Assembly: GCA_031268885.1 (NCBI GenBank)
Contig: JAIRWR010000031.1
Coordinates: forward strand, 1 to 41,835
Reading direction: 5' to 3'
DNA: 41,835 nt
DNA from: Synergistaceae bacterium
GTDB lineage: Bacteria; Synergistota; Synergistia; Synergistales; Synergistaceae
The position numbers and the translations under genes are program-made. The notes below the pieces were generated by a model. The model was given only the letters and a program-made list of their open reading frames with translations, did not search any database and was not told the origin of the DNA. Positions 2,911 through 30,142 of this stretch are shown here, piece by piece. How positions within the stretch are numbered: position 1 is the first letter of the stretch; every line of letters begins with the position of its first letter.

Positions 2911-3546
2911 CTAACTCTTTGCCTTGGGTTTCCTAAAGACTTCGACCTTTGCCGGCGGGAGGTTGTAGAGGACGAAGTGGGACCTCACCTTTTTGAAAGT
3001 GGGAGGTACGTGGAGCATCTTCCCCACCAGGGCATAGGTAAACTGAACGAAAAGCCCGCCGGGTGAGAGCGCGGCGTCTATTTCAGCCATTATCGCCGAT
3101 CCGACGTCAAATGGGAGGCTGCGGAAGGGCAGGCTCGAAATGATCGCCGTTATCTTCTCGTTCCTGTTGATATGATTTCTCATCTCCTCAGCGCCGCAGC
3201 ATATCACATTGATGGATGGAAAACGTTTCGACAGGCATTCAGCAAGCACCGGGGATTTCTCCACGACGACCATCCTCTCGGGAGGAACTCCCCTCCTCAG
3301 AAGCCCCTCGGTGACGGGACCGGTTCCAGCGCCGAGCTCCACAAAGATGCCTGACTTCAGCAGACCGGGAGAGAGAGCTCCGGCCATTTCGTCAGCAAGG
3401 GCCGGAGAACTCGGAAAGAGGGTGCCCATCACACGCGGCTGCCTTATCAGTTCTTTTAAAATGAGGTATTGGCGTTGCACTCGCATTCTGTTTCTTCCTA
3501 CGAATCCGTTGAATCTACTCTCTGTTTTATCGGGACTCCAGTTCAC
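2911..3546 (-). CDS. SAM-dependent methyltransferase, phospholipid N-methyltransferase-like
   Basis: 211 aa. The SAM motif I is clear (FVELGAGTGPVTEGLL), with an acidic strand 2 (VVVEKSP). Motif IV-like ISSLPFRSLP corresponds to the NLPY-type loop of the KsgA/PmtA group. The N-terminal pattern VMGTLFPSSPALADEMA is typical of bacterial phospholipid N-methyltransferase-like proteins. The true substrate is uncertain: phosphatidylethanolamine or another small lipid. The GTG at 3546 lies 9 nt from GAGGGAG; an ATG at 3486 after AGGAAG is an alternative. It follows fprA by 32 bp, so it is probably co-transcribed. Confidence 0.7.
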   Translation of the reverse strand: MNWSPDKTESRFNGFVGRNRMRVQRQYLILKELIRQPRVMGTLFPSSPALADEMAGALSPGLLKSGIFVELGAGTGPVTEGLLRRGVPPERMVVVEKSPVLAECLSKRFPSINVICCGAEEMRNHINRNEKITAIISSLPFRSLPFDVGSAIMAEIDAALSPGGLFVQFTYALVGKMLHVPPTFKKVRSHFVLYNLPPAKVEVFRKPKAKS

Positions 3547-24294: not shown

Positions 24295-24388
24295 CAAAGT
24301 TCTTCTACGTATGCCGGTTCGATTATCGACTCGTAGTATTCAGTGACACAAGAACTCCGGTCAGTTGCTCAAATTCCTCTTTCATCAT
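24295..24388 (-). pseudogene. Relic of a small phage- or ICE-type gene
   Basis: The minus strand starts with ATGATGAAAGAGG after GGAGGAG and reads KEEFEQLTGVLVS; then a frame change is needed to continue as TEYYESIIEPAYVEEL to a TGA at 24295. Combined, the two frames give a sensible acidic protein of about 31 residues. It resembles, from memory, short proteins starting KEEFExLTG with YExIE-type repeats that are seen in phage and conjugative-element gene sets. A one-nucleotide difference separates the frames, so it is probably decayed. Confidence 0.4.
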
Positions 24389-24389
24389 C

Positions 24390-24545
24390 TGAGATCTCCT
24401 CCTCTTGTTCCAGCCTTGCTTCATCACCGTCATCGCGCTCACTGCCGATCATCGCGCCGCACACTCCCGGCTCCTGCTCTGGTGATGGTCTCCGTTTCCC
24501 GGCCGGTGACCTTGCCGCTTAGGTTGTCATGGTGCGGTGTGATGT
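24390..24545. repeat. Island repeat, copy C
   Basis: 156 bp that match 25879-26035 over their whole length with few differences and one single-base indel, and match 27815-27881 over their left third. Shared blocks include GCCTTG-TTCATCACCGTCATCGCGCTC and GGTGATGGTCTCCGTTTCCC. On the minus strand this copy encodes a fragment reading MIGSERDDGDEARLEQ...DERGI and stops, the same peptide seen at the end of the gene at 27639-28040. It is therefore a gene fragment rather than a transposon end. Confidence 0.75.
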
Positions 24546-24675: not shown

Positions 24676-24834
24676 TTGTCAGAAATGTCTGATAAAAAAC
24701 AAGTTATCGTAACAGCTCGCGTGGATAAAGAGTTACGCCAAGAATTTCGTTCGCTTCTCATGAAAAAAGGAGTTACGGTACAAGACTACATTGCTGAACA
24801 CATTGAGAATTACGTCAAAGAACATAGCAAGTGA
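24676..24834 (+). CDS. Small ribbon-helix-helix-type protein
   Basis: 52 aa from a TTG 6 nt after GGAGGAGGG (an internal ATG at 24685 is too far from it). The strand QVIVTARVDKELRQEFRSLL followed by KKGVTVQDYIAEHIENYVK is a typical RHH/Arc fold: one beta strand then two helices. It is likely a DNA-binding autoregulator or antitoxin. It lies 66 bp upstream of a PIN gene with the same direction, with a relic of an HTH gene between them. Whether it neutralises that PIN protein is inference. Confidence 0.6.
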   Translation: MSEMSDKKQVIVTARVDKELRQEFRSLLMKKGVTVQDYIAEHIENYVKEHSK

Positions 24835-24843
24835 GGGGACTTA

Positions 24844-24896
24844 GCCGAACTGTGGATAGCATCAGAGCCGAGATATCCGCCTCCAAGGAGGGGTAA
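24844..24896 (+). pseudogene. 3'-end relic of an HTH gene ahead of PIN gene 1
   Basis: GCCGAACTG then AGCATCAGAG-CGAGATATCCGCCTCCAA matches the last 54 bp of the HTH gene (26365-26418) with small indels and substitutions. No start or 5' part is present. The same DNA now provides the ribosome site (AAGGAGG) of the PIN gene. This shows that a PIN gene once followed such an HTH gene directly. Confidence 0.65.
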
Positions 24897-24900
24897 CCAC

Positions 24901-25389
24901 ATGAAGAAGCTGCGTATTTACCTCGACACCAGCGTTATCAGTCACCTCGACGCGCCGGATGTGCCTGACAAGGAAGCAGACACTAAACGGCTGTGGGAGG
25001 ATATTAAAGCGGGAAGGTATGAGGCGTTTATCTCGCCGGTGGTTGTGGCAGAACTTAATGATTGTCCGGAACCAAAATTATCATATCTTAGAGAGCAGTT
25101 AAAGTTAATCGACTACGTGGTTTTGGGAAAAAATGATGAAGTTACATATTTGGCGGAGCGATATGCGGCAGAGGTGCTAAAGAAAAAGAGTTTTACAGAT
25201 TGTCAGCATATCGCTTATGCTTGCGTATATGATTGTGACATGGTTATCTCGTGGAATTTCAAACATCTCGTCAACTATAAAACCATTATCGGTATTAAGA
25301 GCGTGAATGCGCTTGCGGGATATCGCGAGATGATGATTTATGCGCCAACAAATATCGTAGAAGGGGGCGATGACGACGATGATAGTTAA
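24901..25389 (+). CDS. PIN-domain protein (VapC-like RNase), module 1
   Basis: 162 aa with an AAGGAGG ribosome site. The PIN acidic residues are in place: LRIYLDTSVISHLD (Asp9), VVVAELND (Glu), SFTDCQHIAYACVYDCDMVI (Asp twice), then SWNFKHLVNYK. PIN proteins of this type are Mg2+-dependent RNases and usually toxins of type II toxin-antitoxin pairs. The C-terminus ends GGDDDDDS, unusually acidic. Downstream are two genes of the IPKPEIS family, the first overlapping this gene by 20 nt, so translation is probably coupled. Its paralogue lies at 27042-27515. Confidence 0.85.
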   Translation: MKKLRIYLDTSVISHLDAPDVPDKEADTKRLWEDIKAGRYEAFISPVVVAELNDCPEPKLSYLREQLKLIDYVVLGKNDEVTYLAERYAAEVLKKKSFTDCQHIAYACVYDCDMVISWNFKHLVNYKTIIGIKSVNALAGYREMMIYAPTNIVEGGDDDDDS

Positions 25390-25591
25390 TATTCCTAAGC
25401 CTGAAATCAGTCCTAATTTTACGGTTGAGGATATCCGTAACCTTCGAAACTGGTACGATGCGATACAGGAAGGAATGACATCGGCAGAAAGGGTTGCCGA
25501 CATGGAACGACGTGGGGAAGACGCATTGAGACGGCTTGGGTTGGACACCTCCGCTAAAAGGTTGGAGAAGCAGCTTTCACATGATTCATGA
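25370..25591 (+). CDS. IPKPEIS-family small protein, first copy of module 1
   Basis: 73 aa (or 70 from the ATG at 25379). The N-terminus MIVNIPKPEISPNFTVEDI is nearly the same as in the next gene and in 27517-27714. The second half (ADMERRGEDALRRLGLDTSA) differs completely from theirs. It is acidic to amphipathic and mostly helical, as expected of an antitoxin that wraps a toxin, and overlaps the PIN stop by 20 nt. I do not recognise a named family. Antitoxin function is inferred from the genetic linkage only. Confidence 0.7.
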   Translation: MTTMIVNIPKPEISPNFTVEDIRNLRNWYDAIQEGMTSAERVADMERRGEDALRRLGLDTSAKRLEKQLSHDS

Positions 25592-25778
25592 TATACCAAA
25601 GCCGGAGATAAGCCCGAACTTCACTATTGATGATATCCACAAGATACGCGAGTGGAATTACGAGCGCCGGAAGGATGCGACTATTGAAGAACGTTTGTCA
25701 GATATCAATAAGGGTTTCGAAAACACTCGCCGCGCCATCGAAGAGATACGCCGCTCTAAAGAAGTAAAGGCAGTGTAG
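25581..25778 (+). CDS. IPKPEIS-family small protein, second copy of module 1
   Basis: 65 aa from the ATG at 25581, inside the end of the preceding copy (11-nt overlap). HDIPKPEISPNFTIDDIHKI, WNYERRKDATIEERL, and the tail RRAIEEIRRSKEVKAV. The length and tail match the single copy of module 2 (27517-27714). Predicted to be two or three helices. The 3' end of this gene begins the long repeat shared with module 2. The function is not known; antitoxin is the best guess. Confidence 0.7.
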   Translation: MIHDIPKPEISPNFTIDDIHKIREWNYERRKDATIEERLSDINKGFENTRRAIEEIRRSKEVKAV

Positions 25779-26035
25779 CGCCGATCGTCAGCACGGCACA
25801 GAGTGAGGCGTAATACTAACATTCGGCCCTGTGGCTGGGAACACGGACGCCCCGGGCCGAATTCAATAAAACCGCATTTGAGATCTCCTCCTTGTCGTTC
25901 CAGCCTTGTTTCATCACCGTCATCGCGCTCACTGCCGATCCTCGCGCCGCACGCTCCCGGCTCCCGCTCTGGTGATGGTCTCCGTTTCCCGGCCGGTGAC
26001 CTTGCCGTTCTGGTTGTCATGGTGCGGTGTGATGT
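25728..26035. repeat. Island repeat, copy A
   Basis: 25728-25945 aligns without gaps to 27664-27881 at a constant offset of 1936 bp with about a dozen mismatches, and 25879-26035 aligns to 24390-24545. The repeat runs from the last 17 codons of the IPKPEIS gene through non-coding DNA, a conserved hairpin, and then the reversed end of the gene relic also found at 24390 and 27820. Copy A is a junction of both partial matches. Confidence 0.8.
25821..25862. terminator. Conserved hairpin after module 1
   Basis: ATTCGGCCC (25821-25829) and GGGCCGAAT (25854-25862) form a perfect 9-bp stem with a 24-nt loop. The same hairpin lies after module 2 (27757-27798), where loop bases changed but the stem did not. 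There is no U-tract, so it may be a processing site or 3'-end protector rather than a true terminator. Confidence 0.45.
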
Positions 26036-26157
26036 GTTTAGACGTGTCCGCCTTGGGTAATGCATATATAGTGCCTATATGGATACTATTAATCATCAGT
26101 AAAAATACCTATTTAGTCCCTACTGCGGCACTTTATAATATTTAGGGAGGTGACGAA

Positions 26158-26418
26158 TTGGATAATTTGAATGGAGATTATTTGACTACGCCGGAAGCAT
26201 CAGAGATTAGCCACAAATGCGAGAGCTTCATAAAGCGTTTATGCCGTGACGGACGTTTGCTAGGTGCTAAAAAACTAGGTAAGACTTGGCTTATCCCCCG
26301 CACGTCTATCGAATCCTACACCCCTGGCAAGCGTGGCCGCCGCGCCAAAAAAGAGACGCTGGCCGCCGAACTGGAGAGCATCAGAGCTGAGATATCCGCC
26401 TCCAAAGAGAAGATATAG
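26158..26418 (+). CDS. Excisionase-like helix-turn-helix protein
   Basis: 86 aa with a TTG start after AGGGAGG. DYLTTPEASEISHKCESFIKRL, then RDGRLLGAKKLGKTWLIPRTSI, is the HTH_17/excisionase type of winged helix (MerR-like), which recognises DNA at repeated sites. A basic linker (GKRGRRAKK) and an acidic helix (AAELESIRAEISASKEK) follow. The gene stops 1 nt before hicA. It is probably the regulator or an antitoxin component of this locus. Its 3' end recurs as a relic upstream of PIN gene 1. Confidence 0.78.
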   Translation: MDNLNGDYLTTPEASEISHKCESFIKRLCRDGRLLGAKKLGKTWLIPRTSIESYTPGKRGRRAKKETLAAELESIRAEISASKEKI

Positions 26419-26419
26419 C

Positions 26420-26635
26420 GTGGGATTCGTTACCACGGCGGCGGAAATAATAGCTTTCCTCGCGTCGAATGGCTATCACAAAGAGACAGGCGGGAATCAC
26501 GGTGTAAAGATGGTAAAGGGCGGGAATAGAATACCGATTCCTATGCACAGGAGAGACCTGAAAACCGGTACGGCGAGCGGGATTTTGGCGCAAGCTGGTT
26601 ATACGATCAACGACCTTATGAACTGGAGGCGATAA
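26420..26635 (+). CDS. hicA: HicA-family mRNA interferase toxin
   Basis: 71 aa from the GTG at 26420, right after the HTH stop. The double-stranded RNA-binding-like fold of HicA is visible: EIIAFLASNGYHKETGGNHG (catalytic-type His in GGNHG), RIPIPMHRRDLKTGTASGIL and QAGYTINDL. HicA cleaves mRNA independently of ribosomes until bound by HicB. The open frame extends upstream within the HTH gene, but those codons have no ribosome site. Confidence 0.88.
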   Translation: MGFVTTAAEIIAFLASNGYHKETGGNHGVKMVKGGNRIPIPMHRRDLKTGTASGILAQAGYTINDLMNWRR

Positions 26636-26640
26636 TAATA

Positions 26641-26949
26641 ATGGGACGTTCTTACATTCTAAGCCTGATTTTTTACCCTCAAAAGAACGGCGGCTATACG
26701 GTTATATGCCCGGAATTACACGGGGCAATCACCGAAGGCGACACAATAGACGAAGCCGCCGAGAATATACGCAACATTATTGCGGACTTTTTACCCGAAC
26801 GGGTAAGCGCTTCGCCCGAGGATGAAGAAACCATGAGAGATGGCCTTTGCATGAGGGGGAAGATGTTCCAGGAACTCGAAATAACCGTAGAGGACGGAGA
26901 AGTTGTTTTCCCTCCGCTTGGGACTAAGGTCGAGCGCGTAGCTATATGA
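26641..26949 (+). CDS. hicB: HicB-family antitoxin
   Basis: 102 aa. SLIFYPQKNGGYTVICPELHGAITEGDTIDEA is the partially degraded RNase-H-like HicB fold, followed by a helix (ENIRNIIADFL). It lacks an obvious C-terminal RHH or HTH domain, so DNA binding may come from the HTH protein at 26158-26418. Five bp separate it from hicA. Confidence 0.9.
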   Translation: MGRSYILSLIFYPQKNGGYTVICPELHGAITEGDTIDEAAENIRNIIADFLPERVSASPEDEETMRDGLCMRGKMFQELEITVEDGEVVFPPLGTKVERVAI

Positions 26950-27041
26950 ATAGGCAGCAGAAAAAATGGCGAACCTTTACAATGTGCCCTTTGACGATAT
27001 CCGAACAGCAATATCAGATACCTCCAAGGAGGAATAGCCAC

Positions 27042-27515
27042 ATGAAGAAGCTGCGTATTTACCTCGACACCAGCGTTATCAGTCACCTCGATCAGCAGGA
27101 CGCGCCGGAACGCATGGCTGAGACTCACAGACTGTGGAGTAAAGTCAAGTCTGGTGAGTTTGATATCGTGATCTCAGATGTGGTATTGGGCGAGATAAAC
27201 CGCTGTGAGGAATGCAAGAGGAACACGCTGTATGGATATCTTGCCGAGATAACATACGCCACTGTTGCCGTTGACGAACGCGCTTTAGAGATTGCCAGCC
27301 GCATCATTGACCTAGGGGTGTTGCGCCAAAAGAACCTGAACGACTGCCGTCATATAGCTGCCGCGATAATAAGCGGTTGCGATATTATCGCGTCATGGAA
27401 CTTCCGACACATGGTAAACCACAATACAATCATGGGAGTCAAAGCTATCACAGCGCTTGAGGGTTACAAAGATATGCTGATTTATGCTCCGTCCAGCCTT
27501 ATAGGAGGTGAATGA
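27042..27515 (+). CDS. PIN-domain protein (VapC-like RNase), module 2
   Basis: 157 aa from ATG after AAGGAGG. It shares the exact first residues with module 1 (MKKLRIYLDTSVISHLD) and the PIN residues: Asp9, Glu in VVLGEINR, and Asp pairs in LNDCRHIAAAIISGCDIIAS. The middle is strongly diverged. Frame codons upstream (from 26946) lie in the hicB-PIN gap and are not preferred. The stop is followed 1 nt later by the IPKPEIS start. Confidence 0.87.
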   Translation: MKKLRIYLDTSVISHLDQQDAPERMAETHRLWSKVKSGEFDIVISDVVLGEINRCEECKRNTLYGYLAEITYATVAVDERALEIASRIIDLGVLRQKNLNDCRHIAAAIISGCDIIASWNFRHMVNHNTIMGVKAITALEGYKDMLIYAPSSLIGGE

Positions 27516-27516
27516 T

Positions 27517-27714
27517 ATGATCCACGACATTCCGAAGCCGGAAATAAGCGCTGACTTCACAATTGACGACATACGTAAAATCAGAGACTGGCACTATGAG
27601 ATTTTGAAAGACGCTACAAATGAGGAGCAGATCGACTTTTACCACAGAGAATCCGAAGATGGCCGCCGCGCCATCGAAGAGATACGCCGCTCCAAAGAAG
27701 TAAAGGCAGTGTAG
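27517..27714 (+). CDS. IPKPEIS-family small protein, module 2
   Basis: 65 aa from the ATG at 27517, 7 nt after AGGAGGTG. HDIPKPEISADFTIDDIRKI, WHYEILKDATNEEQI, tail RRAIEEIRRSKEVKAV. The same length as the second copy of module 1. No third partner follows. A probable antitoxin of the upstream PIN protein, by linkage and conservation. Confidence 0.72.
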   Translation: MIHDIPKPEISADFTIDDIRKIRDWHYEILKDATNEEQIDFYHRESEDGRRAIEEIRRSKEVKAV

Positions 27715-28040
27715 CGCCGATCGTCAGCACGGTACAGAGTGAGGCGTAATACTGACATTCGGCCCTGTGGCTGGGAACGCCGACGCACCGGGCCGAATTC
27801 AATAAAACCGCATCTGAGATTCCCTCCTTGTCGTTCCAGCCTTGTTTCATCACCGTCATCGCGCTCCTTGCCAATCATCGCAAGATACTCGGCGCGTTCC
27901 TCAAGCCATGACTGGCGCGGTTCTTTCCCGAGTTCCGCCCAAAGCCTCAAACACTCGGCTTGATGCGCCTTTTCTTTGGCGATTTCCGCCTCAAGCCGTT
28001 GACATTCATTTAAATTAGCCCTAAAATCACGCTTAGACAA
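27639..28040 (-). CDS. Unrecognised coiled-coil protein, possibly with an altered C-terminus
   Basis: 133 aa from a TTG 7 nt after AAGGAGG, a good start. The first 60 residues form a charged, mostly helical segment (RLEAEIAKEKAHQAECLRLW, SWLEERAEYL). The following part (ERDDGDETRLERQGG) is shared with the relic at 24390-24545. Past that, the gene reads antisense through the repeat B DNA and the IPKPEIS gene end, so the last 50 residues are likely an accidental extension after truncation. The family is unknown. It lies downstream of the XRE regulator in the same direction. Confidence 0.45.
   Translation of the reverse strand: MSKRDFRANLNECQRLEAEIAKEKAHQAECLRLWAELGKEPRQSWLEERAEYLAMIGKERDDGDETRLERQGGNLRCGFIEFGPVRRRSQPQGRMSVLRLTLYRADDRRYTAFTSLERRISSMARRPSSDSLW
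27664..27881. repeat. Island repeat, copy B
   Basis: Gap-free match to 25728-25945, as described for copy A, from inside the IPKPEIS gene to the shared fragment CATCACCGTCATCGCGCTC. The hairpin ATTCGGCCC/GGGCCGAAT recurs at 27757-27798. Confidence 0.85.
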
Positions 28041-28480: not shown

Positions 28481-28556
28481 TGGTGGATCGCACAGGAATC
28501 GAACCTGTAACCCCCTGATTAAGAGTCAGGTGCTCTGCCAGTTAAGCTAGCGATCC
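28481..28556 (-). tRNA. tRNA-Lys(CTT)
   Basis: 76-nt cloverleaf: acceptor GGATCGC/GCGATCC, discriminator A, encoded CCA, anticodon arm CCTGA-CTCTTAA-TCAGG. The anticodon CTT reads AAG. Confidence 0.95.
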
Positions 28557-28596
28557 ATATTTAAAAATACTGTAATACAAGAGACACTACACTAGC

Positions 28597-28675
28597 TGGG
28601 GTGAACGAGGGGAATTGAACCCCCGCCCTCTGGATCCACAATCCAGCGCTCTAAACCAACTGAGCTACGCTCACC
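28597..28675 (-). tRNA. tRNA-His(GTG)
   Basis: Acceptor GTGAGCG/CGTTCAC with discriminator C opposite the extra G-1, encoded CCA, and anticodon arm CTGGA-TTGTGGA-TCCAG. The anticodon is GTG. It is transcribed with tRNA-Lys downstream. Confidence 0.95.
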
Positions 28676-28860: not shown

Positions 28861-29763
28861 TCACCGTGACAGATCGACTCTCACTGTGTATTTCTTGATA
28901 AAACCGATTGGATGGTACGACATCTTTGCATCGCGCAGCCCGGGATCCGCCATGTCCTCCTCGCGGTTGACGATTTTGAAATTCCTGCCCTGGCGCGTCA
29001 AAAACTCGTGGTTGATTACTTGATATGCCGCGCTGTATTCCAGACTCGCTTTCTCGAAGTGGATCATGACGAGTTCAGGGTCGGCGACCTCGGCTATCGT
29101 GTAGGCCACAACGCGTCCAAAGACCTCTATCGCTCCGCCCATCATCTGAGGAAGCTGGTTCCAGTTTCCCAAGATGTTACGTACAATTCCGTCACTCTCC
29201 CTCTCTATGCTGCCGGAATCGTCGAAGACGCGGTATGATTCATTCCACTCCTTCTGAAATTGAATTATATCCTGGATATTCTCCGCGGAGATCGGCACAT
29301 AAACGTACGGGTACTGTTTAATGAACTGGTGTATCCTATTTCGCTTCCGCACATAGTTCTTTCCCGATAACTCGGCGAGATCATCCACCATATGCAGATA
29401 CTCCCAGCTCGCCCTGTTTTCTACTACATCGAGCGAATCTCCGAACTGTTCCTTCCATATATTCAACAAGGATTCGGGCACAAGCTGGAATTCGGCCTCG
29501 GATCCAAACCTCGACCTTATGATATCCGCCCAGTCGCCACGGCCCCACTCTCCCACTGGCGCAAGATAGTGTTCGGGCGGCACGTCTCCTCGAATCCAGA
29601 CAAGTCTCTCCTCTTCGTCGAAGGCCATTTGATAACCTAAAGCCCTCTCCCAACACAACAATACGCCAGATGAGTAATCTGATGATTTTTGAGAAGCCAG
29701 TTTCCATAATTCAAGGTAGTTTTTAATGGTGTCAACGTTGATGGATTTAAAAAATAGTCTCAC
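28861..29763 (-). CDS. DUF2156 / phosphatidylglycerol lysyltransferase C-terminal-like protein
   Basis: 300 aa from the GTG at 29763 after GGGGGC. It has the double GNAT-like layout of DUF2156: YLHMVDDLAELSGKNYVRKRNR mid-protein, VYVPISAENIQDI, and a C-terminal GRNFKIVNREEDMADPGLRDA (the ERED region: NREEDMGxxGLRxAK). These soluble proteins resemble the aminoacyl-transferase domain of MprF, but their substrate is unknown. The frame is open to 29955, but the extra residues have no family likeness and no ribosome site. Confidence 0.85.
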   Translation of the reverse strand: MRLFFKSINVDTIKNYLELWKLASQKSSDYSSGVLLCWERALGYQMAFDEEERLVWIRGDVPPEHYLAPVGEWGRGDWADIIRSRFGSEAEFQLVPESLLNIWKEQFGDSLDVVENRASWEYLHMVDDLAELSGKNYVRKRNRIHQFIKQYPYVYVPISAENIQDIIQFQKEWNESYRVFDDSGSIERESDGIVRNILGNWNQLPQMMGGAIEVFGRVVAYTIAEVADPELVMIHFEKASLEYSAAYQVINHEFLTRQGRNFKIVNREEDMADPGLRDAKMSYHPIGFIKKYTVRVDLSR

Positions 29764-30142
29764 AAACAAGCCCCCAAATGATAGTTGATGTTTCAAACAA
29801 TACTTTAACACAAACTTCGTAACGAGAGAAGATAGAATAACGGCCCTCAAACCACAGGCTGAAGAGTTTGGATCCCTGTTGATACTGTTTATCTCTGAAT
29901 TCATGCGGTATTGTTTTCGCACACGGCTGGTCTTGTCAATCAGCCGCGCGAACAAACCGGCTAAAACCAGTCTGGATCATGTGAATACGTAGAAACAACG
30001 TCTTCTGGCTTGTATCTTCTCACTTTTGAGAATTTCAGGCTTCAGCAGGCCCAAAAATTTGACAATGCCGGAATTGCAGAGGATAATACGGATTGAAGAC
30101 TTGGGTAATTTATAAAACACCACCCCACAAGCACCACCCCGC

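Follow-up and report, generated by a model that had tools for sequence, protein, structure and literature searches.

In VapBC toxin-antitoxin systems the toxin is a PIN-domain protein with a conserved acidic triad, and the antitoxin gene lies upstream of the toxin gene. Most antitoxins of the higBA, hicAB, mqsRA, and rnlAB systems carry a DNA-binding domain. These systems are the few of type II in which the toxin gene comes first (PMC4803016), and their toxin folds differ from PIN. Here we describe two gene pairs from a Synergistaceae bacterium (contig JAIRWR010000031.1 of assembly GCA_031268885.1; its whole 41,835-nucleotide (nt) stretch analysed is called the window below), in each of which a PIN gene is followed by a gene for a small protein starting with the motif IPKPEIS. 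With a probability of roughly 0.8, the PIN-IPKPEIS pair is a type II toxin-antitoxin module of reversed gene order, whose antitoxin belongs to a family as yet unnamed.

Like VapBC, the module has a PIN-domain toxin with the acidic triad conserved, and the predicted fold of a relative matches VapC. While it appears to work like VapBC, it is set apart from it by gene order and antitoxin class, as the partner gene is downstream in all evaluable loci, and the partner lacks a ribbon-helix-helix (RHH), AbrB, Phd, or helix-turn-helix (HTH) domain and does not match any VapB family. It is unusual for PIN to come before the antitoxin, but there is a precedent in the PIN-HicB pairs of Synechocystis, listed toxin first, e.g., slr5116-ssr5117 (PMC4963859); there, the proposed antitoxin is HicB and not a helical protein of the IPKPEIS type. 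The order toxin-antitoxin is also shared with higBA, hicAB, mqsRA, and rnlAB; however, the toxin of HicAB is HicA and not PIN, and the window contains a separate HicAB pair (26420-26949). The PaaR-PaaA-ParE and omega-epsilon-zeta systems (PMC4803016) have a separate operon regulator, similarly to those modules of the window that bear HTH_17 or RHH genes, but their toxin is ParE or zeta and the antitoxin precedes it, whereas the regulator is optional here, being absent in most lineages. Finally, MerR-like HTH proteins, DUF433, COG2886, DUF104, and DUF217 are candidate antitoxins linked to PIN (Makarova et al. 2009, PMC2701414). These families were found, as here, by their linkage to PIN genes, but all of them have known or inferred DNA-binding folds, and none is of the IPKPEIS type. 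No description of the PIN-IPKPEIS pair or of the partner family was found in the open-licence literature.

The PIN genes and their downstream partners

Both PIN genes named in the original prediction, PIN1 and PIN2 (Table 1), are present in the window. Their products are 47% identical, match the Pfam PIN family (PF01850) at or slightly over the cut-off, and keep the acidic residues D9, E51, and D100/D101; in the PIN alignment (A4), D9 is at least 90% conserved, and E51 and D101 are invariant. The first 17 codons had been described as exactly shared, which is true of the first 17 residues and the first 50 nt, but codon 17 differs synonymously (GAC/GAT). In the structural model of a related pair (L077, see below), the PIN part has the VapC fold, with VapC proteins of S. 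flexneri, R. felis, and M. tuberculosis among the top matches. Sequence and model thus point to a VapC-type ribonuclease (RNase) toxin, with RNase activity and toxicity predicted. The median ratio of nonsynonymous to synonymous substitution rates (dN/dS) is 0.065 for PIN and, outside the overlap, 0.089 for the partner gene, indicating purifying selection, the pairs compared not being independent.

The partner gene follows PIN with hardly any deviation. The alignment of the two PINs was used to scan 84,980 species genomes, which yielded 80 loci in Synergistaceae, Lachnospiraceae, Oscillospiraceae, Bacteroidales, Planctomycetota, Fibrobacter, a myxobacterium, and others. Two loci were set aside, one with PIN running off the contig end and one with 32 nt of DNA after PIN; in all 78 evaluable loci the partner is immediately downstream (77 by the strict motif, L037 by inspection). 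The same is observed for 5/5 such PINs of the host genome, for all 25 PINs of at least 180 bits in 183 Synergistia genomes, and for 37 of the 37 PINs of at least 200 bits in 27 further genomes. The two genes are adjacent and co-directional, the partner starting no further than +10 nt from the PIN stop in 70/70 pairs with an intact PIN and overlapping it in 61 of these. Chance similarity of short open reading frames (ORFs) was rejected, given the 78/78 linkage and the low dN/dS. Distances between PINs correlate with those between partners (Mantel r 0.56, p 0.0005, 44 non-redundant pairs), and one locus, L030, holds the best or joint-best relative of both PIN1 (64% for PIN) and IPKPEIS-a (60% for the partner). 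In the window itself, an IPKPEIS gene follows each PIN gene as foreseen (IPKPEIS-a and IPKPEIS-c), but a third full copy, IPKPEIS-b, had been overlooked, and so had the DNA repeats, the RHH-like ORF that precedes PIN1, and the HTH_17-HicA-HicB run that precedes PIN2.

The core of the partner over 50 members is S-x-x-F-[TD]-[IV]-[ED]-D-I-[HR]-K-I-R and, nine residues on, MT-x-x-E, with D18 and R23 invariant. No meaningful family match was obtained for these 50 members in Pfam, NCBIfam, and PHROGs. Assignment of the partner to a known family was rejected, as profile searches against Pfam, NCBIfam, PHROGs, PADLOC, and the Protein Data Bank (PDB) gave only sub-threshold, inconsistent matches; in the databases searched the family therefore appears as undescribed as had been proposed. 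The AlphaFold2 model of IPKPEIS-c (mean predicted local distance difference test score, pLDDT, 93.8) consists of an extended arm (residues 1-15) and two helices (16-30 and 35-64), and a PDB fold search with the predicted partner structure returned no match. The anticipated lack of a DNA-binding domain was borne out, as no RHH, AbrB, HTH, or Phd domain was found in the sequences of the 50 members or in the predicted structure.

Counted from the partner, linkage is looser. In a survey of the 183 Synergistia genomes, which were not selected for PIN, 35 of 52 strong partner matches are beside PIN, and in the genomes chosen through the PIN scan 45 of 47 are, six of the PINs being truncated next to an intact partner. 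IPKPEIS proteins thus mostly accompany PIN genes and do not mostly occur away from them, in agreement with the original prediction. Among the Synergistia partners not beside PIN are two at the ends of contigs, a short C76 fragment, and 14 solitary genes. Four of these 14 retain traces of PIN (recognised by profile in L179, L180, and L183, and as an apparent PIN C-terminal tail in L170). At six loci (L075, L078, L084, L101, L102, and L108) an interrupted PIN is accompanied by an intact partner. Partners beside a broken or missing PIN are common, and no full-score PIN without a partner was found. Since partners outlive PINs and full-score PINs never occur without partners, the polarity is that expected of a toxin (PIN) and its antitoxin, and both linkage and loss support the assignment of the pair to toxin-antitoxin systems.

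A solitary intact gene of the IPKPEIS type with no PIN nearby was also seen on an IMG/VR contig (L212, 2980-3168), just downstream of the apparent 3' end of a tyrosine integrase gene; a mobile element may have retained it, or be carrying it, as an antitoxin. Phage origin of the pair was rejected, as no match was found in the phages collection; a few IMG/VR contigs carry the PIN-partner pair.

Proposed mode of action and competing explanations

The upstream gene is proposed to encode a PIN ribonuclease of the VapC type, which would arrest growth by cutting a cellular RNA. The downstream gene, overlapping and probably translationally coupled, would encode an antitoxin of ~55-90 aa, composed of an N-terminal extended arm (IPKPEIS-x-x-FT) and two helices (core DDIxKIRxxxYExxKxMTxEE), which in all likelihood inhibits PIN by binding to it and covering the active site. 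Lacking a DNA-binding domain, the antitoxin would have to leave any transcriptional control to another factor; a candidate is the separate HTH_17 or RHH gene located just upstream in some Synergistia loci, although most other bacteria have no such gene.

Several points weigh against this interpretation. We infer, and do not observe, RNase activity, toxicity, neutralisation, complex formation, and regulation. In L077, a natural in-frame pair, the stop codon between PIN and partner was read through and the fusion was modelled with AlphaFold2 on an alignment with seven PIN rows; the antitoxin segment is also confident, but the overall figures (mean pLDDT 89.5, predicted template modelling score 0.72) do not demonstrate binding. 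The asymmetry of loss is partly expected from PIN being the longer mutational target, and some of the PIN breaks may be assembly errors. Finally, with about one third of the Synergistia partner genes not next to PIN, the small protein may serve a different function in some cases.

The main competing explanation, which we regard as unlikely, is that the small protein does not inhibit the PIN nuclease but serves it as an obligate cofactor or targeting subunit, the pair being a two-subunit RNase and not a toxin-antitoxin pair. Near-invariant linkage, translational overlap, and purifying selection would fit any obligate two-subunit enzyme; however, a cofactor should vanish with its enzyme or before it, yet intact partners persist beside broken or vanished PINs. 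Moreover, tandem extra partners exist (IPKPEIS-b in the window, and also in L030, L034, and L036), and the genes sit in variable arrays together with other toxin-antitoxin genes (HicAB).

A three-gene module, with an upstream RHH or HTH_17 protein as the true antitoxin and the IPKPEIS protein as an accessory, is considerably less plausible still. RHH-like ORFs do lie directly upstream of PIN in the window, C119, L034, L062, L072, and L122, HTH_17-like ORFs abut the PIN gene in L030/L115 and L120 (gene types outside the window were assigned by eye), and MerR-like HTH genes have been associated with PIN toxins (Makarova et al. 2009, PMC2701414). On the other hand, the upstream ORF is HicB-like in the window, L037, L107/L113, and L118, and most loci have unrelated genes or intergenic DNA at this place, so that the upstream type changes (HTH_17, RHH, HicB, or none) while the downstream partner is constant. 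The upstream RHH/HTH_17 gene was rejected as the real antitoxin, being absent in most loci. As a dedicated upstream DNA-binding regulator is present in the window modules and some relatives and absent in most, DNA binding looks like an optional extra contributed by another gene. Least probable of all is that the pair has decayed or been domesticated in the host genome and is no longer toxic there. Truncated PINs and solitary partners are indeed numerous among relatives, and the repeats and remnants near the modules testify to turnover; but PIN1 and PIN2 have both kept their full length and every catalytic position, and both are followed by an intact partner gene whose ribosome-binding site (RBS) can be recognised.

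Array organisation and mosaic structure of the modules

In the window, PIN, IPKPEIS, HTH_17, HicA, HicB, and RHH-like genes form an array with direct repeats (Table 1), bordered by an ylxM-type gene on one side and by tRNA-Lys/tRNA-His (28481-28674) on the other. The order of features is repeat, RHH-like gene, PIN1, IPKPEIS-a, IPKPEIS-b, repeat, HTH_17, HicA, HicB, PIN2, IPKPEIS-c, and a partial repeat. Synteny with three congeners stops at ~24245, just past the ylxM-type gene, hence the array lies in a variable region; a clean empty site was not found in the genus-level comparison with these congeners.

Table 1. Features of the array of probable toxin-antitoxin genes in the window, in order of position.
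Feature	Position	Strand	Evidence and remarks
Left direct-repeat copy flanking module 1	24386..24545	+	Shares 93% identity with part of 25728-26040
RHH-like small protein upstream of PIN1, candidate separate regulator	24676..24834	+	Weak ParG similarity, PF09274 E 0.0013, below cut-off
38-nt remnant of HTH_17 gene 3' end, just before PIN1	24853..24890	+	Matches 26372-26409 within the HTH_17 gene (92% identity)
Conserved 5' cassette end: RBS and first PIN codons	24880..24968	+	89% identical to 27021-27109
PIN1, PIN/VapC-type predicted ribonuclease toxin, 162 aa	24901..25389	+	PF01850 E 8.6e-5; D9, E51, D100, N119 conserved in alignment A4
IPKPEIS-a, probable PIN1 antitoxin, overlaps PIN1 stop	25379..25591 (alternative start 25370)	+	ATG start; relatives at L030
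IPKPEIS-b, extra antitoxin-type gene, overlaps end of IPKPEIS-a	25581..25778	+	71% identical to IPKPEIS-c
Conserved 3' cassette end: 3' end of IPKPEIS-b and downstream repeat	25728..26040	+	Copies at 27664-27881 (94%) and C119:1668-1980 (93%)
HTH_17 (excisionase/MerR-like) DNA-binding protein, head of second module	26158..26418	+	PF12728 E 3.2e-9
HicA-like toxin	26420..26635	+	PF07927 E 2.8e-8
HicB-like antitoxin directly upstream of PIN2	26641..26949	+	PF15919 E 1.8e-5, just below cut-off
PIN2, PIN/VapC-type predicted ribonuclease toxin, 157 aa	27042..27515	+	PF01850 E 1.4e-5; alignment A4
IPKPEIS-c, probable PIN2 antitoxin, starts 2 nt past PIN2 stop	27517..27714	+	RBS overlaps PIN2 3' end

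When the module DNAs are aligned, identity is 87-100% from the RBS through the first PIN codons but 30-67% in the PIN body and the beginning of the partner gene (up to 77% in the PIN body for the closest pair, PIN2 and C127); in the PIN1, PIN2, and C119 modules, identity is back to 90-98% over the last partner codons and 150-300 nt beyond. IPKPEIS-b is closest to IPKPEIS-c of the other module, the repeats at their 3' ends being 94% identical over 218 nt. The divergent middle of the PIN genes had been taken as the mark of toxins that need specific partners. Their shared start reflects mosaicism at the DNA level, with both cassette ends conserved and the middle divergent, and not only conservation of the toxin. 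Such a pattern suggests that the body of the toxin is exchanged, or diverges, together with its cognate antitoxin as a unit. The module sequences fit such block exchange or joint divergence, with IPKPEIS-b as a left-over antitoxin; gene conversion of the cassette ends after duplication is an alternative. The more general proposal that these modules are recombination-built cassettes, in which PIN and cognate antitoxin are swapped as one block, left-over antitoxins stack up, specificity is diversified, and the superfamily is widespread, is tentative, the odds being somewhat against it. The conserved 5' end of such a cassette would comprise the RBS and first PIN codons, and the 3' end the antitoxin C-terminus and downstream repeat.

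The repeat flanking the PIN modules is 150-310 nt long and occurs at three places in the window (24386-24545, 25728-26040, and 27664-27881) and at C119:1668-1980 and 2978-3133. It has sequence in common with the 3' part of a minus-strand ORF (27639-28040) and is a possible recombination substrate. Near the array there is another, large minus-strand ORF (28861-29955), by eye of the DUF2156/lysyltransferase type; in a different Synergistia genome (L121) a homologue of it stands directly next to a PIN module, which hints that the two share a neighbourhood of insertion.

Other genes recur upstream of PIN. The HTH_17-HicA-HicB run (26158-26949) stands directly before PIN2, and the recurring order HicB-PIN-partner suggests a composite toxin-antitoxin unit in Synergistia. 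A conserved ORF of 57-71 aa (IDGLEPTPEMKELLEKEKRGEITMEEIRDIFN), which we take to resemble the VbhA-type antitoxin motif, is found ~62-66 nt before PIN in L060, L074, and L089. In many Lachnospiraceae (loci L043, L069, L086, L087, L090, L104, and L105), a conserved ORF of ~96 aa (MKMDREEIYEMVIREMTETAVRERNE...) is located ~112 nt before PIN.

Wider family and implications

Synergistia also contain a sister branch of PINs (ETTVFNYYFD type), followed by small proteins of the form LDAIRxxLYEETKDMTPEE, which profile comparison connects with the IPKPEIS proteins (E 4e-9). Small proteins are likewise encoded downstream of, and overlapping with, more distant PINs from Leptospira plasmids and viral contigs; by profile they are linked with the sister branch at E 4e-9 and, more weakly, with IPKPEIS at E 3e-6; the negative control in hhalign (A3 vs A4) gave E 0.25 and a probability of 0.2%. 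Small downstream ORFs of similar appearance follow a Thiodictyon PIN and a Kovacikia plasmid PIN. Two of these PINs, from Leptospira and Thiodictyon, are annotated as 'VapC family toxin', and the partner as 'hypothetical protein' or not at all. Given the profile links to the sister-branch and Leptospira/viral partners, IPKPEIS is, on sequence grounds, one branch of a broader superfamily of PINs with downstream helical partners. A family defined by this motif, as in the original prediction, is therefore a real branch, but the motif marks one end of a wider partner superfamily.

If the interpretation of the pair as a toxin-antitoxin module is right, many PIN genes now annotated as partnerless, or with a 'hypothetical protein' as partner, form a coherent toxin-antitoxin family of reversed gene order, and the partner profile would let annotators find such modules in gut, termite-gut, and rumen bacteria. 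The antitoxin would be all neutralisation domain, with no DNA-binding domain, and the pair would be a simple one for studying the inhibition of PIN toxins and the evolution of cognate specificity. Should the modules also prove to be swapped as cassettes, the swapping would be a means of diversifying toxin-antitoxin specificity comparable to that of polymorphic toxins, and would draw on a widespread, unnamed antitoxin superfamily found across Synergistota, Bacillota, Bacteroidota, Planctomycetota, spirochaetes, and possibly cyanobacteria.

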